Shown: positions 13,990 to 29,850 of the stretch, one piece after another
How the letters are laid out: each line of letters starts with the position of its first letter
Numbering within the stretch: the first letter of the stretch is position 1
Assembly: GCA_028679075.1 (NCBI GenBank)
Contig: JAJRCF010000008.1
Coordinates: forward strand, 1 to 64,000
Length of the DNA stretch: 64,000 nt
Origin: Methanoregula sp.
Lineage (GTDB): Archaea; Halobacteriota; Methanomicrobia; Methanomicrobiales; Methanospirillaceae
Direction: 5' to 3'
Notes under the pieces: generated by a model
What the model was told of the DNA's origin: nothing
Seen by the model: the letters and a program-made list of their open reading frames with translations, nothing else
The model's database searches: none
Position numbers and translations under genes: made by a program

Positions 13990-14427
13990 TCCATGACCTC
14001 CCTGTTGTGGAGAGAAGAATCCTTTAAGCGGACCGGACCGTTGCTGTTGATTGCAGCGGTATTGTTCAGGCCACCCGGGATACCCGTACAGACACACCAG
14101 GTATGATTAATTGGCATCAGCAGAGACCTGCTCAAATGACCCAAAGGAGGGCACTCTGTGCTTCCGGGATCGCCCCGCACACGTATGCAACCCATCCTAA
14201 GAGATCATTAGTGCATTTTTGAAACATTAAACTTTTATCTTATAATCCCGCCTGCACCACATGGGAATCCGGGCCCATAACACGGGAATTATTACGATCT
14301 GGCTGTAATCCTGTCTTTTGTCCCGGACAACAATCTCTCGTTTCCCTTACCCGATCATGGGATCCGGTGCACAATTCAATATGATTAATAATGAAAAATT
14401 CCCATATTCAGAGAGGGAGGGTATCTG
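13990..14427. other. Divergent intergenic region between hppA and the ech operon
   Basis: No convincing gene. AT-rich stretches at about 14210-14245 (minus-strand promoter candidate for hppA, implying a leader near 200 bases) and at about 14377-14400 (plus-strand candidate for ech) are visible. GGGAGG at 14415-14420 is the ribosome binding site of the first ech gene. Confidence 0.5.
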
Positions 14428-16344
14428 GTGCAAATCGTTCAGTTATTGATATATCTGATCCTTTTTCCGTTAATAGCTGCAGTCTTCCTGCTTTTTGCCA
14501 AAAAAGGCTTTGAACGCGGCTGGATTGTGAAACTATCCGCACTTGGCATCGGTGCGGTATCGCTCTGGCTTCTTGTTGCCGGCTTTGACAAGGGACTGAT
14601 TACGTATTCGGTCTCGGGCAGGATCTTTGATCTCGCCATGCTCATCATCGAACTGGTGATTGCGGCCTACCTGCTCTGGCTGGGTCTCCGGCACAAAAAA
14701 TATTCAGTTGTCATTCTGGTCCTGATCCAGGCGGCCCTGCTCATCTGGTTTGAGGCATCGTTCGGCCATACCATCGTCGAACTGCCGAACAACCTCTTCT
14801 TCGACCAGTTCTCGATCATCATGGCACTGATCATCGGGATCATCGGGAGCCTGATCTGCGTCTATGCCCTGGGGTACATGGAGACCTATCACGAGCACCA
14901 CAAGGATATCGCAGACCGGCGCGGGATGTTCTTCTTCGTCCTCTTTGTCTTCCTCTCTGCCATGTTCGGGCTGGTCTTCTCCAATAACCTGATGTGGATC
15001 CTCTTCTTCTGGGAGATCACCACGTTCTGCTCGTTTATCCTGATTGGGTATTCCCAGACAGAAGAAGCCACCAATAATGCATTCCTTGCCCTCGCCATGA
15101 ACATGCTGGGCGGGGTGGCTTTTGTTGCAGCACTCATCTATATCGCGACACTGGACCCGTCAGGCAGGCTGCTGGAACTGGGAGCCCTGCTCAGCTCGGG
15201 ATACGCGATTGCCATCGTCCCTGCCGTGCTCATCTGTTTTGCCGGCCTTACGAAGGCTGCCCAGATGCCGTTCTCGTCATGGCTCGTGGGCGCAATGGTT
15301 GCCCCCACGCCGGTCTCGGCCCTGCTGCACTCCAGCACCATGGTCAAGGCCGGGGTGTACATCATCGTGCGTTTCGCCCCGGTACTGTCCGGCACCACCG
15401 AGGGCATGATGATAGCCATGGTCGGTGGCGTGACGTTCCTTCTCACCTCCTGCATGGCAATATCCCAGAGTAATGCCAAGAAAGTGCTCGCCTACTCCAC
15501 CATCGCAAACCTCGGGCTGATCGTTGCCTGTGCAGGTGTGGGGACCTATAACCTGATGTGGGTGGCGATTCTCCTGATCATATTCCACGCGATCGCAAAG
15601 TCACTCCTCTTCCTCTGTGTCGGGACCGTGGAGCACCGGATCGGCAGCAGGGACATCGAGGACATGGGCGGGCTGATCGAGCGTATGCCGAAGCTCGCCA
15701 TCATGATGTTCATCGGCATGGCCGGCATGTTCCTTGCGCCGTTTGGTATGATCATCTCCAAGTGGGCGGCGATCGAGGCGTTCATCCAGGCACCCTTCGG
15801 CCTCATCTTCATTATCATCCTTGCATTCGGGGGTTCGGCAACCCTCTTCTTCTGGAGCAAGTGGATGGGCAAGATCATTTCCGTGATGCGGCACCAGGAG
15901 AACGTGGAGCATTCGATCAGGCAGGAAAAATGGGTGGTCCTCTGGATACTCACCGGGCTCGTTGTCATTGTTGCCCTGATCTTCCCGCTCATCTCCTCGG
16001 CGCTAATCGAGCCGTTCATCATGCAGATCTATGGGCATACGACCCGTCTCTCTGAGGCGAATATCACGATCATGCTCCTGATGATGGGCCTCCTGATCAT
16101 CATGCCGTTCTCCATGTTGTTCCAGAGCAAAACACCGAAAATAGCGCCCCCGTACATGGGCGGGATGACCACGGTCGGGGATATGAAGTACATCGGGTCT
16201 GCCGGGGTCTCCCGTAACCTCGTGCTCTCGAATTATTACCTGCGGAATTACTTCGGTGAGGAGAGACTGTTCATGCCAGGTACCCTTGCCTGCTGGGGCC
16301 TCATCCTCATTGCATTCATCATGGTCGCGGGGGTGATCTTATGA
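14428..16344 (+). CDS. echA: Ech hydrogenase subunit A (NuoL/MrpA-like antiporter subunit)
   Basis: 638 residues, about 16 membrane helices. It is the large ion-translocating subunit of the Ech [NiFe] hydrogenase. The proton/Na+-conducting family motifs are present: Glu in LFFWEITTFCSF, Lys in FAGLTKAAQMPFSSWLVGAM, and HSSTMVKAGVYI. The start is GTG with GGGAGG eight bases before; no upstream ATG fits. It overlaps echB by four bases and opens the six-gene echABCDEF operon. Confidence 0.9.
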   Translation: MQIVQLLIYLILFPLIAAVFLLFAKKGFERGWIVKLSALGIGAVSLWLLVAGFDKGLITYSVSGRIFDLAMLIIELVIAAYLLWLGLRHKKYSVVILVLIQAALLIWFEASFGHTIVELPNNLFFDQFSIIMALIIGIIGSLICVYALGYMETYHEHHKDIADRRGMFFFVLFVFLSAMFGLVFSNNLMWILFFWEITTFCSFILIGYSQTEEATNNAFLALAMNMLGGVAFVAALIYIATLDPSGRLLELGALLSSGYAIAIVPAVLICFAGLTKAAQMPFSSWLVGAMVAPTPVSALLHSSTMVKAGVYIIVRFAPVLSGTTEGMMIAMVGGVTFLLTSCMAISQSNAKKVLAYSTIANLGLIVACAGVGTYNLMWVAILLIIFHAIAKSLLFLCVGTVEHRIGSRDIEDMGGLIERMPKLAIMMFIGMAGMFLAPFGMIISKWAAIEAFIQAPFGLIFIIILAFGGSATLFFWSKWMGKIISVMRHQENVEHSIRQEKWVVLWILTGLVVIVALIFPLISSALIEPFIMQIYGHTTRLSEANITIMLLMMGLLIIMPFSMLFQSKTPKIAPPYMGGMTTVGDMKYIGSAGVSRNLVLSNYYLRNYFGEERLFMPGTLACWGLILIAFIMVAGVIL

Positions 16345-17222
16345 TCCCTGAACCGTGGACCCCGTTTGTCAACGCAATCATCTACCTGCTCCTTGCACCC
16401 GTAGTGGGCGGACTTGTTGCCGGGATTGACCGCAAGGTGACGGCCCGTATGCAGGGAAGAGTCGGACCGCCCCTCCTCCAGCCGTTCTACGATGTAGGCA
16501 AGCTCTTCGAGAAAGAGAACCTCGTTGTTACGACGACCCAGAACTTCTACGTGCTGAGTTACCTCGTCTTCATGGCGGTCTCGGGGGCCTTGTTCTTCTC
16601 GGGAGGGGATATGCTGCTCGTGATCTTCGCGTTCACGCTGTCGCACATATTCCTCGTGCTCGGGGCCTATGCCTCCTACTCCCCCTACAGCCATGTCGGG
16701 GCGGAACGCGAGCTGATCCAGATCATCGCGTACGAGCCGATGATCATCATCACCGCGGTGGGAATGTACATGGTCACGAAGAGCTTCTATGTCGGCACCA
16801 TCGTGCAGTCCCCCATACCGATTGTCCTGTATCTTCCGGGTGTCTTCATCGGCTACCTGATCGTCCTGACGATCAAGCTGCGGAAGTCACCGTTCGACCT
16901 CTCCACGTCCCACCATGCGCACCAGGAGCTCGTCAAGGGGGTCACGACCGATTTCGCCGGCCCGAACCTCGGCAAGCTCGAGATCGCCCACTGGTACGAG
17001 TACGTCTTCCTGCTGGGGGTTGTCTACCTGTTCTTTGCATGGAACCCCATTCTCGCAATAGCGGCGATCATCATCGCCTACTTCCTCGAGATCCTCATCG
17101 ATAACACGACCTCGCGGGTGAAATGGCAGATGACCCTGCGGAGCGCCTGGCTGGTTGCAGGGACGCTCGGTATCATCAATCTTGGAGTATTGTATTACCT
17201 GAGGATGGTGGTGGTCCCATGA
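16341..17222 (+). CDS. echB: Ech hydrogenase subunit B (NuoH-like)
   Basis: 293 residues, about eight membrane helices, NuoH/complex I subunit 1 family. DRKVTARMQGRVGPPLLQPFYD is the conserved loop facing the hydrogenase module, and KLRKSPFDLSTSHHAHQELV corresponds to the second conserved acidic/His loop. It links the peripheral arm to EchA. Starts at ATG overlapping echA (ATGA) and overlaps echC by four bases. Confidence 0.92.
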   Translation: MIPEPWTPFVNAIIYLLLAPVVGGLVAGIDRKVTARMQGRVGPPLLQPFYDVGKLFEKENLVVTTTQNFYVLSYLVFMAVSGALFFSGGDMLLVIFAFTLSHIFLVLGAYASYSPYSHVGAERELIQIIAYEPMIIITAVGMYMVTKSFYVGTIVQSPIPIVLYLPGVFIGYLIVLTIKLRKSPFDLSTSHHAHQELVKGVTTDFAGPNLGKLEIAHWYEYVFLLGVVYLFFAWNPILAIAAIIIAYFLEILIDNTTSRVKWQMTLRSAWLVAGTLGIINLGVLYYLRMVVVP

Positions 17223-17686
17223 CATACCTTGCAAAGTCCCCCTGGATCGTGCACTACGATGGTTCGTCCTGCAATGGCTGCGACATTGAGGTGCTCGCGG
17301 CACTCACTCCCATCTACGATGTGGAACGGTTCGGTATCGTCAATACCGGCAACCCCAAGCATGCAGATATCTTCCTTGTCACGGGGAGCGTGAACGAGAA
17401 GAACCGTGAAATCGTGAAGAACACGTACGACCAGATGCCGGAGCCCAAAGTCGTGGTGGCGATTGGCATCTGCGCCGCAACGGGTGGGATCTTCCGCGAG
17501 TGTTACAACGTGATGGGTGGTATCGACAAGGTGATCCCCGTGGATGTCTACGTCCCCGGGTGCGCTGCCCGGCCCGAGTCCATTATCGACGGTGTCGTCC
17601 AGGCCCTCGGGATCCTTGAAGCAAAGAGGAAGGCAATGAACGAAAATCCGGGTGCTGCAAAAAAACCGGCAGGTGATGCCAGATGA
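17219..17686 (+). CDS. echC: Ech hydrogenase small subunit (NuoB-like)
   Basis: 155 residues. It carries the proximal 4Fe-4S cluster: ligands in SSCNGCDIEVLA (two Cys), GICAATGG and VPGCAARPE. PIYDVERFG is the family fingerprint for group 4 hydrogenases. It passes electrons between ferredoxin-type subunit EchF and the NiFe centre in EchE. The ATG overlaps the echB stop; its own stop overlaps echD. Confidence 0.94.
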   Translation: MTYLAKSPWIVHYDGSSCNGCDIEVLAALTPIYDVERFGIVNTGNPKHADIFLVTGSVNEKNREIVKNTYDQMPEPKVVVAIGICAATGGIFRECYNVMGGIDKVIPVDVYVPGCAARPESIIDGVVQALGILEAKRKAMNENPGAAKKPAGDAR

Positions 17687-18051
17687 AACAGGAACAGTCA
17701 ATCATCCCCATCGATGTCGGGCAACTGATCGGCAGCGTGGAACAGTGCAGGAACGAGGGGTACCGTCTCGCCCAGATCGGCTGCACGAAAGTGGGCGACA
17801 ACGACTTCGAGGTCAATTATTCCTTTGACAAGGACTATGTCCTAAAGAACCTGCGGATCACCGTGACTGCGGAAACGGAAGTCCCGAGTATCACCGGGAT
17901 GTACTGGGGGGCGTTCGTGTACGAGAACGAGATGCACGACCTCTTCGGCATCCAGGTGAAGGGGATCAACATAGATTTCAAGGGCACCTTCATCCAGACC
18001 GCGATCAAATACCCGTTCGGGGTCTCGATCTCGAAAGGAGAGAAACCATGA
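17683..18051 (+). CDS. echD: Ech hydrogenase subunit D (NuoC-like)
   Basis: 122 residues, NuoC/30-kDa family. The late motif YENEMHDLFGIQVKG is the conserved ExxxxDLFGI signature. It is a cofactor-free structural subunit of the peripheral arm. Four-base overlaps on both sides place it firmly in the operon. Confidence 0.9.
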   Translation: MKQEQSIIPIDVGQLIGSVEQCRNEGYRLAQIGCTKVGDNDFEVNYSFDKDYVLKNLRITVTAETEVPSITGMYWGAFVYENEMHDLFGIQVKGINIDFKGTFIQTAIKYPFGVSISKGEKP

Positions 18052-19127
18052 CAAAGCAGATCATCGTCCCCTTCGGGCCCCAGCACCCGGTGCTTCCCGA
18101 ACCGATCCATCTTGACCTTGTCCTTGAGGATGAGCGAGTGGTCGATGCGATACCCTCGATCGGGTATATCCACCGGGGGTTCGAGAAGCTCGTGGAGAAG
18201 CGGGAGTTCACCGAGTACGTCTACATTGCCGAGCGCACCTGCGGGATCTGCAGTTTCATCCACGGTGCCACCTACTGCCAGGGGATTGAGCAGATCATGA
18301 AGATCGAGGTGCCCGAACGTGCCGATTACCTCAGGACAATCTGGTCCGAGTACTCGCGTCTGCACTCACACCTGCTCTGGCTCGGTTGTTTTGCCGATTC
18401 CTTCGGTTTTGAGAACCTGTTCATGGCGGCATGGCGGATCCGCGAGCGGATCCTCGATGTGTTCGAGCAGACGACCGGTGGCCGGGTGATCCAGGGGTCC
18501 TGCAAGATCGGTGGCGTCCGGCGGGATATCGCGAACGATAAGCTTTCCGGGATGAGCCGCGACCTTGACAGTATCCGGAAGGAGATCGGGGAACTGACAA
18601 CGGTCTTCCTCAACGACGATACCGTCCGGCACCGGACCCGGAACATCGGGGTCCTCTCCCGGGACGATGCCTATCATCTCGGGGCTGTCGGACCCACAGC
18701 CCGGGGGAGCGGGGTCGCAATCGACCTGCGCAAGACCGGGTATGGCGCCTATGACCGGCTGAACGTCCCGGTCATCACGGACAGCTGCGGGGACTGCTAT
18801 TCCCGCTGCTACGTGCGGTGCAAGGAGCTCTTCACGTCCATCGACCTGATCCAGCAGGCAATAACGGAGATCCCTGACGGCCCGATCGATGTGAAGGTAA
18901 CGGGTGCCCCAAACGGCGAGTATTTCATGCGGGCCGAGCAGCCCCGGGGCGAGCTGGTCCATTACCTCAAGGGCAACGGGACCAAGTTCCTGGTCAGGTC
19001 CCGGATCCGGACGCCGACCCTGACCAACATCCCGCCGCTCGTCAAAATGCTGCAGGGATGCGAACTCGCGGATGTCCCGGTGATCGTATTGTCGATTGAC
19101 CCATGTATCAGCTGCACGGAGCGGTGA
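18048..19127 (+). CDS. echE: Ech hydrogenase large subunit (NiFe catalytic)
   Basis: 359 residues, NuoD/large-subunit family. Both NiFe ligand pairs are intact: ERTCGICSFIH near residues 62-72 and DPCISC at the end. The protein stops at CTER, exactly where other large subunits are cleaved, so it has no C-terminal extension to remove, as reported for EchE proteins. The full ligand set argues for a true hydrogenase rather than a complex I relative. Six bases separate it from echF. Confidence 0.94.
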   Translation: MTKQIIVPFGPQHPVLPEPIHLDLVLEDERVVDAIPSIGYIHRGFEKLVEKREFTEYVYIAERTCGICSFIHGATYCQGIEQIMKIEVPERADYLRTIWSEYSRLHSHLLWLGCFADSFGFENLFMAAWRIRERILDVFEQTTGGRVIQGSCKIGGVRRDIANDKLSGMSRDLDSIRKEIGELTTVFLNDDTVRHRTRNIGVLSRDDAYHLGAVGPTARGSGVAIDLRKTGYGAYDRLNVPVITDSCGDCYSRCYVRCKELFTSIDLIQQAITEIPDGPIDVKVTGAPNGEYFMRAEQPRGELVHYLKGNGTKFLVRSRIRTPTLTNIPPLVKMLQGCELADVPVIVLSIDPCISCTER

Positions 19128-19133
19128 TCTGCC

Positions 19134-19517
19134 ATGGGATTTTTTGAGATGACAAAAACAGCACTGAAGACGGTGCTCTCCCGGCCGGTAACGATCCTGT
19201 ACCCGTACCAGCCGGCGAAAAAGACCGGTCTTACCCGGGGGCACGTTGTCCAGGACGGCAGCAAGTGCATTTCCTGCAGCATCTGCGTGAAGAAATGCCC
19301 CTCTCAGGCAATCCTGCTCAACAAGGAAGCGAAGACCTGGCAGATCGACCGGTTCCGCTGCGTTGTCTGCAATTCGTGTGTCGACACCTGCCCCACCAAG
19401 TGCCTCTCCATGGACACCCAGTACACGGCACCGGCATCAAAACAGGGTGTCGAAGTCTTCACGATCACATACGTGAAGCCGCCCAAGCCGGAGAAGAAGG
19501 AAGAGCCAAAAGAATAA
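19134..19517 (+). CDS. echF: Ech hydrogenase ferredoxin-like subunit
   Basis: 127 residues with two 4Fe-4S motifs, CISCSICVKKCPSQ and CVVCNSCVDTCPTKC, of the NuoI type. It is the entry point for electrons from reduced ferredoxin. Last gene of the operon; a T-rich tract begins immediately after the stop. Confidence 0.93.
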   Translation: MGFFEMTKTALKTVLSRPVTILYPYQPAKKTGLTRGHVVQDGSKCISCSICVKKCPSQAILLNKEAKTWQIDRFRCVVCNSCVDTCPTKCLSMDTQYTAPASKQGVEVFTITYVKPPKPEKKEEPKE

Positions 19518-19915: not shown

Positions 19916-20179
19916 ATGCCGGGTGAGGACTTTTTTATTGTGCTCGTGATTGGCATGGCAACGGTTGCCATGGCACTGGTCGCGGTCGTGCAGAAGAACC
20001 TCATCCGGGCGGTTATTGCGTTTGCGGTCTCCAGTGTCTGTCTTGCAATCCTGTTTTTTCTGCTGGCCTCACCATATGCTGCGGTTCTTGAGCTGGTGGT
20101 CGGGGGCGGCCTGGTCGCTGTCCTGTTCCTTGTTGCGCTCATCCTCGCCGGCGGGGAAGAGGAGAAGGTGCGCGCATGA
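19916..20179 (+). CDS. Mbh-like hydrogenase small membrane subunit (MbhD/NuoJ-like)
   Basis: 87 residues, three membrane helices. KNLIRAVIAFAVSSVCLAIL followed by AAVLELVVGGGLVAVLFL resembles the DUF4040/MbhD fold and also NuoJ. In Mbh complexes this subunit forms part of the ion channel next to MbhE and MbhG. First gene of the operon; the upstream 400 bases are gene-free and carry its promoter. Overlaps the next gene by four bases. Confidence 0.7.
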   Translation: MPGEDFFIVLVIGMATVAMALVAVVQKNLIRAVIAFAVSSVCLAILFFLLASPYAAVLELVVGGGLVAVLFLVALILAGGEEEKVRA

Positions 20180-20418
20180 ATGCAAAAAATGCGTGTGCAG
20201 TAATCCTCGGAACCGTCTTCATGGGAATTTTTATTGCACTCCTTGCTTCCACTCCCCTTTCCTGGCCTGTAGTAACTCCGTTGTCCTCCGGAGTGGGTGA
20301 ATCGCTCTGGAACGATCGCACCTACGAGGCGCTCCTGCAGGGAATGATCATCCTTGCGGGTGTCTTGTCGATACTCCTGCTGCTGGGCCTGAAACAATCG
20401 GGGAGGATGCCCCCATGA
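20176..20418 (+). CDS. Mbh-like hydrogenase small membrane subunit (MbhE-like)
   Basis: 80 residues with an N-terminal and a C-terminal membrane helix and a polar stretch between that contains NDRTYEALLQGMII. Position between an MbhD-like and a NuoK-like gene, and this layout, match MbhE (MnhB N-terminal type); sequence similarity by eye is weak. Four-base overlaps both sides. Confidence 0.55.
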   Translation: MNAKNACAVILGTVFMGIFIALLASTPLSWPVVTPLSSGVGESLWNDRTYEALLQGMIILAGVLSILLLLGLKQSGRMPP

Positions 20419-20738
20419 TGCCGGACGAGGGTGTCGTCATACTGGTCGTGGCAGGGGCGCTCTTTGCGATTGGCCTTGGCAGCCTGATTGCACGCTGTAA
20501 CCTGATCAAGATGGTGATGGGCCTCGAACTTCTTGGCAAAGGGATCAGCCTTCTCTTTATCCTCGGGGGATACCTGTCCGGTAATACCGGGATTTCCCAG
20601 GCAGTTGTGTTTACCCTGATCGCGATCGAGGCCGTTGTTGCCGGTCTTGCCCTCGCCCTCGTCATCCTTGCCAGAAGGGTCTGGAAAACCTTTGATATCG
20701 CTGCGATCTCGCGGCTCTCTCCCGGCGGTGAGCGGTGA
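20415..20738 (+). CDS. NuoK/MrpC-like subunit (MbhG-like)
   Basis: 107 residues, three membrane helices. ARCNLIKMVMGLELLGKGISLLF contains the conserved membrane Glu of the NuoK/MnhC family, and AVVFTLIAIEAVVAGLALAL the second. It belongs to the ion-translocating membrane arm. Overlaps the start of the giant antiporter gene. Confidence 0.8.
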   Translation: MMPDEGVVILVVAGALFAIGLGSLIARCNLIKMVMGLELLGKGISLLFILGGYLSGNTGISQAVVFTLIAIEAVVAGLALALVILARRVWKTFDIAAISRLSPGGER

Positions 20739-23700
20739 TGGACGTCTTCCCGTGGATGCTTGTCCTCATCGTCCTCATCCCGTTTGTCGGAACCGGGTTC
20801 GTTCTGCTCTTCCATAACCGCCCGGATGCCCGCGAGGCGGTCTCACTTGCCGCGGCACTCCTGACCTTTCTTCTCTGCGCCCTGTCCCTGCCCTCTGCGT
20901 TTACCGCACAACCCCTGTCCACCACAGCACTCCAGATCCTCCCCGGGCTTGATATCCGGTTTACGGCAGATGCGCTCGGTCTCCTGTTTGCAACCCTCGC
21001 CTCCCTCCTCTGGATCATAACCACGGTCTACAATATCGGGTACATGCGGGGCCTCAAAGAGCATTCCCAGACGCGATATTATGCGGCGTTTGCCATCACG
21101 ATCGGGGCGGTGATGGGCGTAGCACTCTCGTCCAACATGTTCTCCCTGTTCGTCTTTTACGAGATCCTCGCCATTGCTGCCTATCCCCTTGTGGTGCACA
21201 AGGAAACAGCGGAGGCGCTTGCAGCAGGGAGAAAATACCTGATCTATACCCAGTGCGGGGGAGTTTCCATCCTGGCCGGTATCATGGCCCTCATCGGCAT
21301 GGGAAACACGCTGGACTTTATCCCGGGCGGCAACCCTGGTGTTGCCCTGATCGGCCCGGAATTTGCCCGTCTTGCGTTCATCCTCCTCTTTGCGGGTCTC
21401 GGGGTAAAAGCGGCGCTTGTGCCCCTGCACGGGTGGCTGCCAAGCGCGATGATCGCCCCGACACCGGTGAGCGGCCTGCTGCACGCCGTCGCGGTCGTGA
21501 ACACCGGGGTCTTTGGCATCCTCCGGCTGATGTGGTACCTCTTCGGGCCCGAACAGATGGCAGCCCTCGACCTCCAGTATTTTGTCATCGGTGCGGCAGT
21601 TGTCACTATAGTTGTCGGCTCCCTGTTCGCCCTTATCCAGGACGACTTCAAGCTCAGACTCGCGTATTCAACCGTGAGCCAGCTCAGCTACATGGTACTG
21701 GGAGCCGCAGTGCTCCTGCCGGCAGGGGTATCCGGTGTCACCGATGCCGGAAGGGTTGCGGCCGTGATCGGGGCAACGTATGCCTTCACTGCCCATGCTC
21801 TTGGCAAACTGACCATGTTCTTTGTCGCCGGCACTGTTGCGGTCGAGACGGGGAGAACGAAGATTTCAGAGCTGGACGGGCTCGGCAGGAAGATGCCCTG
21901 GGAGTTTGCTGCATTCACGCTCGCCACCCTGAGCATGGCAGGACTACCGCCGATGGCGGGTTTTATCTCGAAATGGTATCTTTCCGTGGGAGTCGGATCC
22001 GGGGATGCCAGCCAGTGGTGGGTCCTGCTCCTCCTTATCGGTGCCAGTGTCCTGAACCTGGCCTATTTCCTCCCCGTCATCATCCGGGCGTTTTACCGGC
22101 CTGCAAGCGGTGACGTTCCTCAGGTCCGTATGACCCTCCGGGGGCCTGTTATCGTGACCGCGGCCCTTGCCCTTCTCGCGGGTCTCTGGACGGTCTATCC
22201 CTACAGCCCGTTTGCGCTCTGTGCCATGGTCGCTGCCGGCGTGACTCATACGGCAGCCCCCGTTCTCGGGACACTTGCCTTGGGCACGGCAATCCCGCCG
22301 TTCCTGATCTTCCTCATCGGCGCCCCGCTCGTGCTGGCACTCTCAGGCCGGGCACGCCAGGCCGGTCTTATCGTCCTCGGCGGCATTGCGCTTGCCGATG
22401 TCCTCCTCCTCCCGGGAGGGTATTTCACCGGGCCGGTTGTCGGCGGTGTCCTGCAATGGAATGTCCCCTTCATGGGATATACCCTGACTCTCCTGAGAGT
22501 CGACAGTCTCTCGTACCTCACCGGGCTCATTTTCGCCCTCATCACGTTCCTTGCCATTGTATATGCAGCAGCAGTTGCAGCACCCCGCCTCCACCTTTAC
22601 GCCCTCCTCTATGCCGGGGCATCGCTCGGCGTAGTCTTTGCCGGGGACTGGATCACGCTCCTGTTCTTCTGGGAACTCATGGCCGTCACTTCCACATTCC
22701 TGATCTGGCAGGAAGGTGGGGAAGCGATCCGTGCAGGATACCGGTATCTCCTCTTCCACGGCCTCGGGGGGACGCTCCTTGGGGCTGGGATTGTCCTGCT
22801 CTTCATAGGGGGTGGCTCTCCCATTGTCGGGCCGCTTGCCGGGATCCCCGCTGCAACATACCAGTTTTGGGCATCGGTGCTGATCGTGCTCGGCATCGGC
22901 GTGAACGTCGCGTTCATCCCGCTCCATACCTGGCTCCCCGATGCGTACCCCCGGGCGAACTTTGTTGCCAGCGTATTCCTGAGTGTCTATACCACGAAGG
23001 CGGCGGTCTACCTTCTCGCACGGGCCCAGCCCGGGACGGAATTCATCGCTTTCATGGGGGCGTTCATGGCAGTGTACGGCGTGATCTTTGCCGTCTTCCA
23101 GAACGACATGCGCCGTCTCCTCTCCTACCACATCGTCTCGCAGGTAGGCTACATGGTTGCCGGGATCGGGATCCTGGGCTGGCTGGGTGCAGCGGATGCG
23201 ATCGGGCAGCTCGGTCTTGATGGCGGCATGGCCCATCTCTTCAACCACATCCTCTACAAGGCCCTCCTTTTCATGGCAGTCGGCGTCATCATCTGGAAGA
23301 CCGGCGAGAACCTGCTGAGCCGCGTCGGCGGGCTCCAGAAGAAGATGCCGGTCACGGCACTTGCGTTCTGGGTTGCCGCGTTCTCGATCGCGGGCGTCCC
23401 GCTTTTCAATGGTTTTGTGTCAAAGGGCATGGTGCTCCTTGCCGCGGAGCATACGAGCATATGGCTGTGGGTGCTGCTGGAGATCGCGTCCTTCGGCACA
23501 TTCGTCTCGTTCCTCAAGCTCGGGTATTTTGCCTTCCTCCGCCCGGGAGAGACAAAAGGGTCGGATCCCCCGCTCCTGATGCAGGCGGGCATGCTGGGAG
23601 CTGCAGCACTCTGTATCATTATCGGGATCTGGCCGGCACTCCTGTACTCACTCCTGCCATACACCACAAGCTATGCGGTGTATGACCCGGTACACGTCAT

Positions 23701-24022
23701 CACCGCATTGCTGGTCCTCGGGGCTGCAGCGCTCTTCTTCTTCACGATTGGGAAGAAGGTCCTTGAACCCCATGACGTGTCGCAGAGGGACTTCGATCTC
23801 GTGTACGAGAAGGCATGCCACGGTGTCTGCCTTGCTGCACGCGGGCTCCAGGAACTGTTCCGGATCATCTACGCGTATGCAACCGCGGGAGCCCGGCTGC
23901 TCTTCGATGCCGGCAGGCTTGCCATGGGGATGGAAAACCGTGACGCGAACTGGAACAGTGCGATGTTTGTTGGTGTTCTTGTTGCCCTGGTCACCGTCGT
24001 AATCTTGGGGGTGGGATTATGA
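20738..24022 (+). CDS. Double antiporter-like subunit (two fused NuoL/M/N modules)
   Basis: 1094 residues, about twice the length of one antiporter subunit. Module 1 (about 1-480) keeps the key residues: Glu in FVFYEILAI, Lys in GLGVKAALVPLHGWLP. A hydrophobic linker (about 480-600) leads to module 2 (about 600-1000), which has Glu in LLFFWELMAV but Asn instead of the TM7 Lys in GIGVNVAFIPLHTWLPDAY, a change also common in DhaD-like antiporter subunits. A C-terminal amphipathic tail (about 1000-1060) precedes a last helix. ATG 20738 overlaps the previous stop (GTGATG); GTG 20735 is also possible. The reading frame is continuous across the join, with no sign of a frameshift artefact. Confidence 0.85.
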   Translation: MDVFPWMLVLIVLIPFVGTGFVLLFHNRPDAREAVSLAAALLTFLLCALSLPSAFTAQPLSTTALQILPGLDIRFTADALGLLFATLASLLWIITTVYNIGYMRGLKEHSQTRYYAAFAITIGAVMGVALSSNMFSLFVFYEILAIAAYPLVVHKETAEALAAGRKYLIYTQCGGVSILAGIMALIGMGNTLDFIPGGNPGVALIGPEFARLAFILLFAGLGVKAALVPLHGWLPSAMIAPTPVSGLLHAVAVVNTGVFGILRLMWYLFGPEQMAALDLQYFVIGAAVVTIVVGSLFALIQDDFKLRLAYSTVSQLSYMVLGAAVLLPAGVSGVTDAGRVAAVIGATYAFTAHALGKLTMFFVAGTVAVETGRTKISELDGLGRKMPWEFAAFTLATLSMAGLPPMAGFISKWYLSVGVGSGDASQWWVLLLLIGASVLNLAYFLPVIIRAFYRPASGDVPQVRMTLRGPVIVTAALALLAGLWTVYPYSPFALCAMVAAGVTHTAAPVLGTLALGTAIPPFLIFLIGAPLVLALSGRARQAGLIVLGGIALADVLLLPGGYFTGPVVGGVLQWNVPFMGYTLTLLRVDSLSYLTGLIFALITFLAIVYAAAVAAPRLHLYALLYAGASLGVVFAGDWITLLFFWELMAVTSTFLIWQEGGEAIRAGYRYLLFHGLGGTLLGAGIVLLFIGGGSPIVGPLAGIPAATYQFWASVLIVLGIGVNVAFIPLHTWLPDAYPRANFVASVFLSVYTTKAAVYLLARAQPGTEFIAFMGAFMAVYGVIFAVFQNDMRRLLSYHIVSQVGYMVAGIGILGWLGAADAIGQLGLDGGMAHLFNHILYKALLFMAVGVIIWKTGENLLSRVGGLQKKMPVTALAFWVAAFSIAGVPLFNGFVSKGMVLLAAEHTSIWLWVLLEIASFGTFVSFLKLGYFAFLRPGETKGSDPPLLMQAGMLGAAALCIIIGIWPALLYSLLPYTTSYAVYDPVHVITALLVLGAAALFFFTIGKKVLEPHDVSQRDFDLVYEKACHGVCLAARGLQELFRIIYAYATAGARLLFDAGRLAMGMENRDANWNSAMFVGVLVALVTVVILGVGL

Positions 24023-25482
24023 ACCCGGTCGATATTGCCGGGTTCATGCCCTTCTTCATCGCGCTCTGTGGTATCGGGATGTATTTCTTAACAAAAGTAT
24101 TCCCGCCAAACCTCCGCCACTGGTGCGGGACCCTGACCGGCTTCGTCCTCTTTGCCGTTTTCTGCCTGCTCCTGTCCGTCCTGTTCCAGCATGAGGCCTA
24201 CCCGACAATATCCTATATCGGGCTGACCGGCGGTCTCCTGGTGACGGGTATCGGGGCCGTGGCAGCATGGGCATCGGCGGGGACCCTTGATCCCCGGGGC
24301 CCGGTCCAGTTCTATTACCCGCTCTTCCTCTTTGCCCTTGCCGGAGCCATGGCTGTCGGGTTTGCGACAGACCTCTTCACCATCTTCGTCCTTGTTGAAC
24401 TGTCCGCGATCCCCATCTATGCCCTCTGTGCGTACCATTACCAGACCGATCCTGCGGCCCTGTCGGCAGCCATGAAATACATCCTCCAGGGGGTCATGGG
24501 CACCCTGACCGCACTCCTTGGTGTTGCGCTCCTCTTTGTCGAAGGCCATACCCTGAGCATATCCCTGCTCCCGGCCGCCCTTGCCGGTGCAGACCCCCGC
24601 ATCGTCCTGTTCGCGGCCCTCCTGATCCTGCTCGGGTACAGCGTAAAACTCGGGGTTGTCCCCCTCCATACCTGGCTGCCGGATGTATATGCCCGGGCAC
24701 CGGTCGGCGTCACCGCCATCATGGTAGGGCCCACGAAGATCGGTGTCCTGATCGCAATGATCCTGTCGCTCTCCGCCCTGCCGGCCGAAGGAACGCTGCC
24801 ATGGACCCTTGGCATTGTTGTCACGTTCTTTGCGGTTGTCACGATGACTGCCGGCAACCTTCTTGCCCTGAACCAGAAAGACCTCCGGTATATCCTCTCC
24901 TACTCCAGCATCGCCCAGATGGGATATATCCTGCTGGGATTCGGGATCGGCCTGATCTACGACCTGCCCCTCGGCTTTGTGGCCGGTCTCTATTATGCCA
25001 TCGCGTATGCCATGATGAAATCCGGGGCGTTCTTCGCAACGGATGCTTTTGCACGCGATGCAGGGTCCTACCGGGTTTCAGCGATGGCGGGCCTGGGTGC
25101 ACGCCACCCCGTCCTGGGCCTGTCCATGGTGGTCTTCATCTTCGGACTCATTGGTGTTCCCTTCACTTCCGGTTTCCTCGGCAAACTGCTCCTTGAACAG
25201 GCGGGTATGGTAACCTCCATGACGGGAGGTGTCGTCCTTGCCCTGATCCTTGCCCTGAACAGCGCCCTCTCGCTCGGGTATTATATCCCGGTCATATCGA
25301 CCCTCCTCTTCTGTGGCACGGACAGGGAGACGTGCCCTGCAAACCCGAAACCATTGCCGCTCACGGTCGTTTCCGCCGTGGTATTCCTCGCGGTTGTGAC
25401 GTTCTATTTCGGCCTGTTCCCGGAATCGTTTGACTGGATCTCCAGTGCCGCCCGGCAGATATTCCCCGGGGGGGTGCCGTGA
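24019..25482 (+). CDS. mbhH: MrpD/NuoN-like antiporter subunit (MbhH-like)
   Basis: 487 residues, about 14 membrane helices. Glu in FTIFVLVELSAIPIYAL and Lys in GYSVKLGVVPLHTWLPDVY are conserved, followed by GPTKIGVLI. It is a complete ion-conducting module and, with the double gene upstream, gives three antiporter modules in the complex. Starts ATGA over the previous stop and ends one base before the next ATG. Confidence 0.88.
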   Translation: MNPVDIAGFMPFFIALCGIGMYFLTKVFPPNLRHWCGTLTGFVLFAVFCLLLSVLFQHEAYPTISYIGLTGGLLVTGIGAVAAWASAGTLDPRGPVQFYYPLFLFALAGAMAVGFATDLFTIFVLVELSAIPIYALCAYHYQTDPAALSAAMKYILQGVMGTLTALLGVALLFVEGHTLSISLLPAALAGADPRIVLFAALLILLGYSVKLGVVPLHTWLPDVYARAPVGVTAIMVGPTKIGVLIAMILSLSALPAEGTLPWTLGIVVTFFAVVTMTAGNLLALNQKDLRYILSYSSIAQMGYILLGFGIGLIYDLPLGFVAGLYYAIAYAMMKSGAFFATDAFARDAGSYRVSAMAGLGARHPVLGLSMVVFIFGLIGVPFTSGFLGKLLLEQAGMVTSMTGGVVLALILALNSALSLGYYIPVISTLLFCGTDRETCPANPKPLPLTVVSAVVFLAVVTFYFGLFPESFDWISSAARQIFPGGVP

Positions 25483-25812
25483 ATGCTGTCATGGGATCTC
25501 CTGACCTCCCCGGTCATCATCATGGCATATGCCCTCGGCATCGGCTACCTGGTCTATGCCTGGTCCCGCACCATTGCGCCGGCTTTTACCCATTCCGTCA
25601 ACAAGACCATGCCCTATGTTGGCGGCGAAGTTGCAGAGGCGCAGACCTGGCAGCCCGGGTACCAGTTCTTCTACGTGGCCCTCTTCTTCACGGTGGTCCA
25701 CGTGGCTGCACTGGTGCTGGCAACCGCCCCGTTCGATGCCCCGCTCTGGGGGCCCCTTGGTTATCTTGCCATCATGGCCATTGCGATTATGATCCTGAGG
25801 TGGGAGCAATGA
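25483..25812 (+). CDS. MbhI/NuoA-like membrane subunit
   Basis: 109 residues, three membrane helices. KTMPYVGGEVAEAQTWQPGYQFFYVAL resembles the Y-x-x-GE loop of MbhI and the NuoA-type loop that connects the antiporter arm with the hydrogenase arm. It separates the antiporter genes from the hydrogenase genes, exactly where MbhI sits. A 79-base gap with no gene follows. Confidence 0.7.
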   Translation: MLSWDLLTSPVIIMAYALGIGYLVYAWSRTIAPAFTHSVNKTMPYVGGEVAEAQTWQPGYQFFYVALFFTVVHVAALVLATAPFDAPLWGPLGYLAIMAIAIMILRWEQ

Positions 25813-25891: not shown

Positions 25892-26425
25892 ATGGCAGTC
25901 CCGGACACCGGCATGAGCCGGCGCCTTGTGAACTGGGCGCGGGCCAAATCCCCGTGGATCACTGTGTACAACAGCGGGGCCTGCAATGCCTGTGACATCG
26001 AGATCATCGCCTGCCTTATGCCCCGCTTCGATGTCGAGCGTTTCGGGATCCTGGTCAAGGGCTCTCCCCGTCACGCGGATATCCTGATTGTCACCGGGCA
26101 TGTGACCCTGAAACAGGCCTCCCGCCTCCGCCGGGTATGGGAGCAGATGCCGGAACCAAAGTATGTGATTGCCATGGGTGCCTGCGGTGCGGCAGGGGGA
26201 GTATTCCACGGCCTGTACCATATGATGGCGTGCGTGGACTGCGTAGTCCCGGTCGATGTCTACGTGGCCGGGTGCCCGCCCCGCCCGGACGAGATCATCA
26301 ATGCGGTGGTCACCTGCCTGAACCTGATGGCAGAGGATGCAGCCCATGGCGGGAAGGAATGGCGGCGGAAGAAGCCCGCAACGGGCGCGGATACAGAGGG
26401 AAAAAGCTGCACGGTGATACCATGA
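25892..26425 (+). CDS. mbhJ: Mbh-like hydrogenase small subunit (NuoB-like)
   Basis: 177 residues. Cluster ligands lie in GACNACDIEIIA, GACGAAGG and VAGCPPRPDE, with the group 4 fingerprint PRFDVERFG. It transfers electrons to the NiFe subunit. A very strong GGAGGTGGTGA (25875-25885) precedes the ATG and restarts translation after the only gap in the operon. Paralogue of echC in this window, about half identical by eye. C-terminal 25 residues are a basic, probably flexible tail. Confidence 0.92.
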   Translation: MAVPDTGMSRRLVNWARAKSPWITVYNSGACNACDIEIIACLMPRFDVERFGILVKGSPRHADILIVTGHVTLKQASRLRRVWEQMPEPKYVIAMGACGAAGGVFHGLYHMMACVDCVVPVDVYVAGCPPRPDEIINAVVTCLNLMAEDAAHGGKEWRRKKPATGADTEGKSCTVIP

Positions 26426-26910
26426 CCCGTCCGGTAACGGTTGAGACGATAACGGAAAGGATGAAGGAATTCGGAGTGGTTGAGCAGGTCCGGAAAAACC
26501 GTATCAGGGTGAAAACCGTACCTGACAGGATCCATGACGCGATAACGACATCGCAGGCGATGCTGGGATTTGACCGCCTGATCACCATCAGTACCGTGGA
26601 CAATGGCGAAACACTGGAACTGTTGTACCACCTGATCGGATCGCACCGCATCATCATCTCCCTCTCCATCGAACTCCCCCGCGACAAGCCGGTGACACCA
26701 ACCGTCTCTGACCTGCTTCTCCCTGCAGGTATCTACGAGCGGCAGATCCACGACCTCTTCGGCATCACCTTCGAAGGAAATCCCAACATGAAAAAGATCA
26801 TCCTGAACGAGGACTGGCCCGGGGATGAATTTCCCCTGCGCAAGGACTGGACACCCGGTCCCGATGTCTTCTACGGCGGGATACGCGTTGAGAAGAGGGA
26901 GGGGAGCTAG
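26422..26910 (+). CDS. mbhK: Mbh-like hydrogenase NuoC-like subunit
   Basis: 162 residues, NuoC family with YERQIHDLFGITFEG and the C-terminal WPGDEFPLRKDW that is typical of the family. The extra N-terminal about 30 residues (EFGVVEQVRKNRIRVK) are absent from EchD in the window. ATG overlaps the mbhJ stop by four bases. Structural subunit of the peripheral arm. Confidence 0.9.
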   Translation: MTRPVTVETITERMKEFGVVEQVRKNRIRVKTVPDRIHDAITTSQAMLGFDRLITISTVDNGETLELLYHLIGSHRIIISLSIELPRDKPVTPTVSDLLLPAGIYERQIHDLFGITFEGNPNMKKIILNEDWPGDEFPLRKDWTPGPDVFYGGIRVEKREGS

Positions 26911-28029
26911 ATGCCCGAAGTCGTTGTCTCCATCGGCCCGCAGCACCCGGCGCTCAAGGAACCGGTCAACTTCAAGGTCATCGCCGACGGGGAAAAGATC
27001 GTGCGCCTCGAGCTCGACCTCTCCTACAACCACCGGGGGATCGAGAAGGCGGCCGAGCAGCGGAACTTCATCCGTGTCCTCCCGCTCTTAGAGCGGGTCT
27101 GCGGCATCTGTTCGCACTCCCATGCCACGGTCTTTTCCAAGGGCATCGAGGAGATCATGGGCCTTTCGATCCCCCCGCGTGCCCAGTACATCCGCACCAT
27201 CATTGCCGAGCTCGAGCGGATGCACAGCCACCTCCTCTGGCTGGGTGTTGCAGCGCACGTGATCGGGTTCAATACCCTCTTCATGTGGACCTGGCGTGAC
27301 CGCGAGGCCGTGCAGGACACACTCGAGGAGATGAGCGGGAACCGGGTCCACTATGGCATGAACGAGATCGGGGGCGTCCGGCGGGATCTGACCCCGGCTC
27401 AGGTCGAAGCGGCCCTCGCGAGGCTGCCGGTTCTGGAGGAACGGATCAAAAAGTACGTGGAGATGGTGAACAGCGAGGAGACCATGCTGATCCGTTTCCG
27501 GGATGTCGGGAAGATGAGCCGGGAGGAGGCGCTGAAGTACGGGGCGGTCGGGCCTACGGCACGGGCAAGCGGGGTGGATTACGATGTCCGCAGGGACGAC
27601 CCGTATCTTGCCTATGCAGAGGTGCCCTGGAATGTCATCACGGACACGCACGGGGACGTATACGGCCGGACGCGTGTGCGTGTCGGGGAGTTATGGGAGA
27701 GCACACAGATTGTCCGGTACTGCCTTGAGAATTTACCGGCAGGACCGATCCGGGTCGATGCACCGAAAACTGCGCCCAAAGGCGAGATCCTGTCGCGATA
27801 CGAAGCCCCGCGGGGGGAGCTTGCCCACTTCATCCGGACAAACGGTACTGACAAAGTGGAACGGGTCGATATCCGCACGCCGACACTGGCAAACTGGACC
27901 TCAGTGGCAGTCTGTCTTGTCAACCAGAACATTGCGGATATCCCGGTGATCGTTGCGGCGATCGACCCCTGCCTCTCGTGCACTTCAAGGCTGACCGTGG
28001 TAAACCGGGTGGATAAGGTGGGACGATGA
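26911..28029 (+). CDS. mbhL: Mbh-like hydrogenase large subunit (NiFe catalytic)
   Basis: 372 residues. NiFe ligands LERVCGICSHSH (about 62-73) and DPCLSC are intact, so it should be a working hydrogenase. After CTSR there is a 12-residue tail (LTVVNRVDKVGR), a likely maturation peptide; the HycI-type protease gene at the end of the operon could remove it. AGGGAGGGGAG precedes the ATG. Paralogue of echE. Confidence 0.94.
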   Translation: MPEVVVSIGPQHPALKEPVNFKVIADGEKIVRLELDLSYNHRGIEKAAEQRNFIRVLPLLERVCGICSHSHATVFSKGIEEIMGLSIPPRAQYIRTIIAELERMHSHLLWLGVAAHVIGFNTLFMWTWRDREAVQDTLEEMSGNRVHYGMNEIGGVRRDLTPAQVEAALARLPVLEERIKKYVEMVNSEETMLIRFRDVGKMSREEALKYGAVGPTARASGVDYDVRRDDPYLAYAEVPWNVITDTHGDVYGRTRVRVGELWESTQIVRYCLENLPAGPIRVDAPKTAPKGEILSRYEAPRGELAHFIRTNGTDKVERVDIRTPTLANWTSVAVCLVNQNIADIPVIVAAIDPCLSCTSRLTVVNRVDKVGR

Positions 28030-29000
28030 CCGATCCCGTGTTTATCCTCCTCTACATCTTCATCTTCCCGGGGTTCTTCTTCCTTATTTCCTATGGCCTG
28101 TTCCTCGCGTACCTGGACCGGAAGATTGCAGCCCGGATGCAGCAGCGGGTAGGGCCGCCGATCTGCCAGCCGCTCGCTGACCTGATCAAGATGCTGGGCA
28201 AGGAAGTGATCAACCCGAATGGCGTGGACTGGCGGGTATTTGACGCGATCCCCCTCATTGCCCTTGCTGCTGTCATGACCGCGTTCCTCTATGTACCGGT
28301 TCTCGGGTACAGCCCGCTTGCGTTCCAGGGGGACCTTGTTGTCGTCCTTTACCTCATGGCCCTTCCGACGATAGCGCTCTTCGTGCTCGGATGGCTCTCC
28401 CGTAACATCTTCTCCGCCATCGGCGGGATCCGGGCAGTCACGCAGCTCTTCATCTACGAGGTGCCGTTCTTCCTTGCCCTCCTCACTCCCGCCATCATGG
28501 CAGGCAGCTGGTCGATCTCGGAGATTGTTGTATGGCAGCAGCACAACCTCTGGATCATATTCTTCCAGCCTATCGGTTTCATCGTGGCCCTGATCGGGCT
28601 CCAGGCAAAGCTGGAGAGGACGCCCTTCGACATTCCCGAGGCGGAGACCGAGATCGTTGCCGGGCCCTGGACGGAGCTGACCGGGCGCAGGCTCGCCCTC
28701 ATGGACCTTGCAACCGATGTCTCCCTCGTTGTCGGCAGCGCCCTGATTGCAGCCCTGTTCCTTGGCGGCCCCATGCTCCCGTGGGTCCTTGCCCCGTTCT
28801 GGCTGAACAGTATCGCCGGCTTTGCCCTCTTCCTGGTAAAGACCCTTGCCGTGCTCCTGATCCTGTCATCGATCAAAGTAGCGACCGGCCGTATCCGGAT
28901 CGACCAGCTCAATGATATCGGCTGGAAATACATTGCAAGTGCAGCCGTCGTGCAGGTAGGGATCGTGCTTGTCATCAATTATCTCTGGGTGGTCCCATGA
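28026..29000 (+). CDS. mbhM: Mbh-like hydrogenase NuoH-like membrane subunit
   Basis: 324 residues, about eight membrane helices. The conserved loop is DRKIAARMQQRVGPPICQPLADL, and KLERTPFDIPEAETEIVAGP is the second hallmark (E/D rich loop) of NuoH proteins; this copy is closer to NuoH at that loop than EchB is. Anchors the peripheral arm. Four-base overlaps with both neighbours. Confidence 0.93.
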   Translation: MTDPVFILLYIFIFPGFFFLISYGLFLAYLDRKIAARMQQRVGPPICQPLADLIKMLGKEVINPNGVDWRVFDAIPLIALAAVMTAFLYVPVLGYSPLAFQGDLVVVLYLMALPTIALFVLGWLSRNIFSAIGGIRAVTQLFIYEVPFFLALLTPAIMAGSWSISEIVVWQQHNLWIIFFQPIGFIVALIGLQAKLERTPFDIPEAETEIVAGPWTELTGRRLALMDLATDVSLVVGSALIAALFLGGPMLPWVLAPFWLNSIAGFALFLVKTLAVLLILSSIKVATGRIRIDQLNDIGWKYIASAAVVQVGIVLVINYLWVVP

Positions 29001-29356
29001 GCGTCCTCCGTGAGATGCTGGAGAATTTCCTTTCCCGTCCCATCACGATCCTGTACCCGAAAGAGAAGATCCCGATCCCGGATGCATTCCGGGGCCGGGT
29101 TGCCATCACCGATGACAAGTGTATCGGGTGCTCCAAATGTTCGCTGGTCTGCCCGGCACAGGTGATCACCATGATCGACGGCCCCCGCGAGGTTGAATTC
29201 AAGGGGAAGACCCTTGCCCGGAAGAAACGGCCTCAGGTGAAACTGTACAAGTGCATCCGCTGTGCACTCTGCGAGCGGCACTGCCCGACCGGGGCGATCT
29301 ACCTGAAGAATGAGTTGTCAAGCTCGGGTACCGACGGGGAAGTCGTGATCACGTAA
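28997..29356 (+). CDS. mbhN: Mbh-like hydrogenase ferredoxin-like subunit
   Basis: 119 residues with two 4Fe-4S motifs, CIGCSKCSLVCPAQ and CIRCALCERHCPTG. Takes electrons from reduced ferredoxin. The N-terminus LSRPITILYP matches the same part of EchF (LSRPVTILYP), showing common origin. Its stop shares one base with the ATG of the protease gene (TAATG). Confidence 0.92.
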   Translation: MSVLREMLENFLSRPITILYPKEKIPIPDAFRGRVAITDDKCIGCSKCSLVCPAQVITMIDGPREVEFKGKTLARKKRPQVKLYKCIRCALCERHCPTGAIYLKNELSSSGTDGEVVIT

Positions 29357-29850
29357 TGGAGAAGGCAGCCCCGTTCTCTGACACCCTGCAACACAGGATA
29401 AAAAATGCCCGCAGGCTGGCAGTAGTTGGTATCGGCGATGAACTCATCCCTGCCGATCTGCTGGGGATCTCCGCTGCCCGGATGATCGAACAGCAACACC
29501 TCCCGGGTATACAGGTCTTTTTTGCCGGGACCGTGCCTGAGAGTATCACCGGTCCTATCCGCAGGTACCGGCCGGAACATGTCCTTTTTCTCGATGCAGC
29601 GGAGATGGGAGAACCGCCCGGGACAATAGCGGTCATCGCGCCGGGGCAGGTCCAGGCAAGTCTTCTCTCAACGCATGCCCTCCCGCTGACGGTGGTCATG
29701 GAGTATGTCGAGCGGGAGACCGGGGCCGGCGTTACGCTGCTGGGCATCCAGCCCGGTCACAGGAATCCTGAGAACGACCTGTCGGATGAAGACCAGGCAT
29801 ATCTGGACCGGAACCTCCGGCAGCTGTTCACAATTCTTGAAAAACGGTAG
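29356..29850 (+). CDS. hycI: Hydrogenase maturation protease (HycI/HyaD family)
   Basis: 164 residues. VVGIGDELIPADLLG is the family opening (GxGNxLxxDD in classic members) and DAAEMGEPPGTIAVI the middle motif with the nickel-binding acidic residue; LGIQPGH is the third. These proteases trim the large-subunit C-terminus after nickel insertion. Placement right after mbhN and the tail on MbhL suggest MbhL as its substrate. GIGDELIPAD keeps Asp but has Ile/Pro in place of common residues. Confidence 0.88.
   Translation: MEKAAPFSDTLQHRIKNARRLAVVGIGDELIPADLLGISAARMIEQQHLPGIQVFFAGTVPESITGPIRRYRPEHVLFLDAAEMGEPPGTIAVIAPGQVQASLLSTHALPLTVVMEYVERETGAGVTLLGIQPGHRNPENDLSDEDQAYLDRNLRQLFTILEKR

Follow-up and report, generated by a model that had tools for sequence, protein, structure and literature searches.

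A fused Mrp D2-D3-type antiporter gene in a group-4 [NiFe] hydrogenase operon of Methanoregula and related archaea

The number of pump modules in a relative of complex I is thought to set the ions moved per reaction, with one module in MBH, two in MBS and three in complex I, and the authors who discuss this relation speculate on adding or inactivating a module (PMC7684303). Several described systems are close to the locus presented here. Mbh, known from Pyrococcus furiosus (PDB 6CFW) and from other Methanomicrobiales, combines a single antiporter module with a Na+ module. In MBS/MBX from P. furiosus (PDB 6U8Y; PMC7684303) two modules, H and H', are adjacent, the latter with a lateral helix and TM16, and these paired modules carry different residues at TM7 (E219/K217). 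Hydrogenase-4/FHL-2 is a group-4 hydrogenase with three antiporter-like subunits (HyfB, HyfD and HyfF), and Hfo is a proposed Fpo-like hydrogenase of 11 subunits from Bathyarchaeia (HydDB subgroup 4g; PMC7886697), which means that three-module hydrogenases are already known or predicted. For the Methanomicrobiales, the available part of Anderson et al. (PMC2686161) describes Eha, Ech and Mbh and does not mention a fused antiporter subunit.

The window, which is the whole stretch of 64,000 nucleotides of a Methanoregula sp. contig analysed here (GenBank assembly GCA_028679075.1, contig JAJRCF010000008.1), carries an operon in which two antiporter-like modules are encoded by a single gene. This gene, at 20738-24022 on the forward strand, as are all the features of the operon given below, is an open frame of 1094 codons from an ATG at 20738 to a stop codon ending at 24022, with zero internal stops (an alternative GTG start at 20735 would give one residue more), and Pfam matches Proton_antipo_M (PF00361) twice along the 1094-aa chain (E 1.2e-87), which bears out an earlier sequence-only reading of one frame with two full modules. 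Module 1, or FusN (residues 1-497; 20738-22228), is of the Mrp D2 type (D2 clade 100/100) and conserves the key residues E142, K224 in TM7 and K357 in TM12. Module 2, or FusC (residues 518-1094; 22289-24019), is of the Mrp D3 type (D3 clade 100/100), has E646, N723 (TM7), K754 (TM8) and K841 (TM12), and scores 598 bits against the NCBIfam Na+/H+ antiporter D model NF009310, whose cut-off is 564. Each half combines a PF00361 match with the TM5 Glu and the TM12 Lys, the features by which a Proton_antipo_M module was recognised; in both halves of the 20 aligned fused rows, which represent 19 distinct gene copies, the TM12 Lys is found in all rows and the TM5 Glu in nearly all. A short join (residues 498-517; 22229-22288) lies between TM14 of module 1 and TM1 of module 2.

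Relatives come from a protein search and from genome searches at the level of the order (199 genomes), the class (232) and the phylum (393). The full-length fused gene is present in 16 copies in 15 species-level genomes of the Methanoregulaceae and one neighbouring family, namely the genome of the window, 13 genomes with a single copy and one (G002) with two; three additional fused copies are interrupted by contig ends only. We found no split homologue within this clade, whose fused homologues are 67-86% identical, and the one genome in which the halves sit at the ends of two contigs (G184) is uninformative in this regard. Outside the clade no fusion was found, since every non-clade locus opened among the Halobacteriota hits consists of split genes. 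This includes apparent fusions suggested by long open-frame values in G508, G391 and others, in which the genes are separated by true stops and often by 220-450 bases. In the comparison of fused and split homologues proposed in the sequence-only reading, the homologues are thus not always split, and the rarity that this reading supposed is supported, the fusion being found, in the genomes searched, in this clade only. The operon that carries it is patchy, being absent from many genomes of the same genus.

Many of these genomes are draft MAGs, a circumstance in which an assembly or sequencing error could lose a stop codon and join two genes. The same fusion occurs, however, in 15 separate genomes, one of which (G064) is a single contig, and the codons of the join are themselves constrained, with pN/pS values of 0.48 for residues 500-520 and 0.41 for residues 480-530, compared with 0.17-0.22 for the module cores. 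A missed stop codon, which the earlier reading had named as the result that would overturn it, is therefore discarded, and we give such a slip practically no chance of explaining the gene. The fusion is real, inherited and conserved. In a literature search of partial coverage we found no published description of it, and the covalent D2-D3 fusion, its clade-wide conservation and the recruitment of Mrp genes appear to be undescribed in the papers found.

The sequence-only reading had also placed a hydrophobic linker between the modules, for which structure prediction was proposed. In our AlphaFold2 model of the fused chain, which rests on a shallow, 16-row alignment and is of moderate confidence (mean pLDDT 69.5, pTM 0.64), both modules are helical, but residues 498-517 form a coil with pLDDT below 50, so that the join is short and modelled with low confidence, and not an added hydrophobic segment. 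The model says nothing firm about the relative placement of the two modules. It predicts a C-terminal TM15, a lateral amphipathic helix of 46 residues (1019-1064; hydrophobic moment up to 0.59) and TM16 (1070-1093), together encoded at 23687-24016; the same element is described in MbsH' (PMC7684303). Among the best 50 matches of a PDB fold search, all are to antiporter chains of complex I, Mrp, MBH and MBS of single-module size, covering at most 725 alignment columns for the 1094 residues.

The join is the part of the chain with the lowest confidence and one of the least conserved between the modules, and 16 of the 20 rows retain a GTG at residue 502. These observations could fit a gene that is fused in the DNA while the mature subunits are separate, either by internal initiation or by proteolysis at the flexible join. 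Against this, the window has no Shine-Dalgarno-like sequence before the GTG at residue 502, conservation of a Val codon would account for it just as well, and the split relatives start closer to TM1 of the module; none of the possible internal start codons at the join combines conservation with a recognisable ribosome-binding site ahead of it. We consider separate mature subunits improbable.

At TM7, as the sequence-only reading had described, module 1 carries GLGVKAALVPLH (K224) and module 2 carries GIGVNVAFIPLH (N723); neither residue varies among the 20 aligned fused rows. That reading took the Lys and the Asn as a sign that two pumps of unlike chemistry are locked together by the fusion. 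The difference itself stands, but it is not special to the fusion: all 34 FusC-type control sequences carry Asn at TM7, 33 of them being split proteins and the remaining one (L123) belonging to the fused clade and cut by its contig end, and the Lys/Asn contrast therefore predates the fusion. The Asn is a trait that the Mrp D3 family already had. Moreover, the Glu and Lys found at this position in MBS make unlike TM7 residues in neighbouring modules an already known arrangement.

The same Asn, found without exception in both the fused clade and the controls, raises the question of whether module 2 pumps at all. It might be a structural spacer, in which case the complex would have two active pumps and a tethered passive module bearing the lateral helix. 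This alternative is to be taken seriously, yet we consider it the less probable one, given that E646, K754 and K841 of module 2 are unchanged across all aligned fused rows and that its core is under the strongest constraint of the whole protein (pN/pS 0.17). Three ion paths are the preferred reading.

The origin of the two halves can be traced in the split loci. In the opened non-clade loci of the Halobacteriota, the halves match the separate D2 and D3 genes of stand-alone Mrp antiporters, which lie side by side in the order of the halves, with identities of about 41-51% between Mrp D2 and the first half and about 39-48% between Mrp D3 and the second. The loci opened in Methanomicrobiales and other Halobacteriota are Mrp operons with MrpC, D1, D2 and D3 genes, and one of them (L061), checked with Pfam, has MnhE, MrpF, MnhG and MnhB and no detected hydrogenase gene. 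These operons thus share with the fusion the source family of both halves and the D2-D3 order, and differ from it in that their genes are split and hydrogenase subunits were not detected. In a maximum-likelihood tree of 86 modules, the first halves all fall inside the D2 clade and the second halves all inside the D3 clade (100/100 in each case), and the sister of the fused halves comes from the same genome, G475, on both sides. This nesting of each half in its own Mrp clade, with a shared sister genome, indicates that an adjacent Mrp D2-D3 pair was most likely recruited together into a group-4 [NiFe] hydrogenase operon and then fused. As separate observations, some Mrp operons of Halobacteriota (L145, L146, L147, L149, L153 and L154) have four tandem antiporter-type genes and not three, and a complex I/Fqo-like operon in G314 (L174:1-5206) has a FusN-like gene of the Mrp D2 type after a NuoK-like gene, truncated by the contig end, which may be a second recruitment of such a module.

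The fused gene overlaps its neighbours in the TGATG/ATGA style and follows three subunit genes: a MbhD/NuoJ-N-like subunit (19916-20179; PF00499 E 8e-8 and PF13244 MbhD E 5e-6, both just under cut-off), a subunit at the MbhE/NuoJ-C position (20176-20418), assigned by position and conservation in relatives with no confident family match, and a MbhG/NuoK-like subunit (20415-20738; PF00420 E 8e-15). Tightly downstream, in an arrangement conserved in relatives, are the third antiporter-like gene (24019-25482, 487 aa) and the hydrogenase genes. These are a MbhI-position subunit (25483-25812), weakly NuoA/Nqo7-like (profile against Nqo7, 4he8_A, E 0.0024; PF00507 E 0.0057, under cut-off) and without a match to 6cfw_I at E<=1; the small subunit, MbhJ/NuoB-like (25892-26425; PF01058 E 8e-30); a MbhK/NuoC-like subunit with an approximate start (26422-26910), assigned by position and conservation in relatives; the [NiFe] hydrogenase large subunit (26911-28029), whose best PDB match is MBH 6cfw_L (E 1.3e-87); a MbhM/NuoH-like membrane subunit (28026-29000; NCBIfam NuoH models, best 223 bits, under cut-off); and a MbhN/NuoI-like ferredoxin-type subunit (28997-29356), in which two CxxCxxC-type clusters are read and which is conserved in relatives. 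A probable hydrogenase maturation protease (29356-29850), named from its sequence, follows the operon in complete relatives. The order of the genes is thus that of Mbh, i.e. D, E position, G, fusion, third module, I position, J, K, L, M and N.

The large subunit has both the L1 and L2 Cys motifs of group-4 [NiFe] hydrogenases (RVCGIC and DPCLSC), and NuoB-like, NuoH-like and antiporter-like membrane subunits are found together in one operon. In the large-subunit tree, this subunit and its relatives form, together with a divergent sister type, a clade of their own (97/96) near Mbh, which is distinct from Pyrococcus-type Mbh, from Ech and Hyf/Hyc, and from the D subunits of complex I/Fpo; it lies outside the Mbh clade (P. 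furiosus type, 4d), in which Pf_MbhL and the canonical Mbh of Methanomicrobiales group together (98/96). Long branches are flagged in this tree, so its deep order is unsure. The sequence-only reading had counted MbhH as a third module. A third module is indeed encoded by the next gene, but its class is that of NuoN and not of Pyrococcus MbhH: its best PDB match is a NuoN (8e9g_N, E 5e-44), and it groups with NuoN/FpoN (100/99), whereas the single module of the Mbh in other Methanomicrobiales falls with Pyrococcus MbhH (98/97). This separate NuoN-class gene after the fusion brings the predicted complex to three modules.

The Na+ module of Mbh and Mrp (MbhA, B, C and F; MrpEFGB-type) is absent from the operon, whose Mrp-type partners are only a C-type (MbhG/NuoK) subunit and the MbhD/E pair, and not the MrpB/C/E/F/G set. 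The genome, which is 90% complete, has no MnhB and no MnhE above cut-off, so the module appears to be missing. This bears on whether the fused chain retains an Mrp-like Na+ (or K+)/H+ exchange that would make the hydrogenase sodium-linked. The derivation of both halves from Mrp operons and the match of module 2 to the Na+/H+ antiporter D model above cut-off agree with this proposal; the lack of a Na+ module in operon and genome speaks against it, and we regard a sodium-linked enzyme as rather unlikely.

In its three modules and lack of a Mrp/Mbh Na+ module the operon resembles complex I. It shares with Mbh the gene order and the closest solved large subunit, and differs by its three modules, two of them fused, by the lack of the Na+ module and by a separate large-subunit clade. 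Unlike the fusion, MBS/MBX has its modules on separate chains, includes a Na+ module and has no NiFe site, its catalytic site being an iron-sulfur cluster, and Hydrogenase-4/FHL-2 has three separate genes whose modules are only distantly related. Hfo, compared by description only (PMC7886697), shares the NiFe head, the complex I-like membrane set, the three antiporter modules and the lack of a Na+ module; it has, however, the 11 subunits and gene order of Fpo/Nuo, whereas here the composition corresponds but the NuoA and NuoJ-C parts are only weakly assigned, the L/M positions are taken by a Mrp D2-D3 pair, two modules are fused and the order is that of Mbh. The chances are about even, in our judgement, that the operon represents a previously undescribed group-4 lineage, which would have reached the three-pump, Na+-module-free layout of complex I by its own route, through a NuoN-class module and an imported, then fused, Mrp D2-D3 pair, so that two neighbouring pumps are one polypeptide.

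From the gene content, the fused Mrp D2-D3 chain probably belongs to the membrane arm of a group-4 [NiFe] hydrogenase that is energy-converting and has three ion paths; we infer the assembly into one complex, the pumping by each module, the identity of the ion, the electron partner and the direction. The hydrogenase head (MbhJ-K-L-N type) would transfer electrons between H2/H+ and probably ferredoxin, and conformational and charge changes would travel via MbhM, MbhI, MbhD/E and MbhG into the NuoN-class module and both fused modules, so that the enzyme, like complex I, would have three ion paths. At its C-terminal end, the fused chain would brace the arm through the lateral helix, and the join would mainly set the stoichiometry and neighbourhood of the two modules, adding no new chemistry. 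The most likely role would be the reduction of ferredoxin by H2 at low H2, driven by the ion-motive force, and the reverse may also run. With textbook potentials, ferredoxin at -500 mV and 1-10 Pa H2, we estimate that 2.3-3.1 ions per H2 are needed at 150-180 mV, conditions under which a one-module enzyme would be marginal. On the other side, module 2 could fail to pump, given its TM7 Asn, the MbhI/NuoA assignment is weak, and other hydrogenase-type complexes in the genome, such as Ech, could serve the same role. The fused clade seems to be a natural case of added modules, other Methanomicrobiales keeping a one-module Mbh, and, by tying two particular modules together, the covalent join provides a built-in restraint on how the modules are ordered in such hydrogenases, a disputed point for which two models exist (PMC7384014).

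Directly upstream of the fusion operon, and head to tail with it, is a complete Ech-like hydrogenase operon (EchA-F; 14428-19517); this succession is found in many relatives, with Ech inverted in one (L124). A probable membrane pyrophosphatase gene, named from its sequence (11929-14097, reverse strand), adjoins the two hydrogenase operons. A Hyf/Ehf-like operon (L175:10018-17170, G000 C6) encodes a HyfG-like subunit in which both NiFe Cys motifs are missing, a lack that PMC2686161 notes for a similar operon. The two fused genes of G002 (L070:8618-11896 and L071:11274-14561) lie on C6 at about 519.6-537.6 kb, one in the orthologous operon and the other in a convergent, diverged hydrogenase operon; in the latter the large subunit is about 51% identical and the fused gene 72-76%, so the fused gene is better conserved than its partners.
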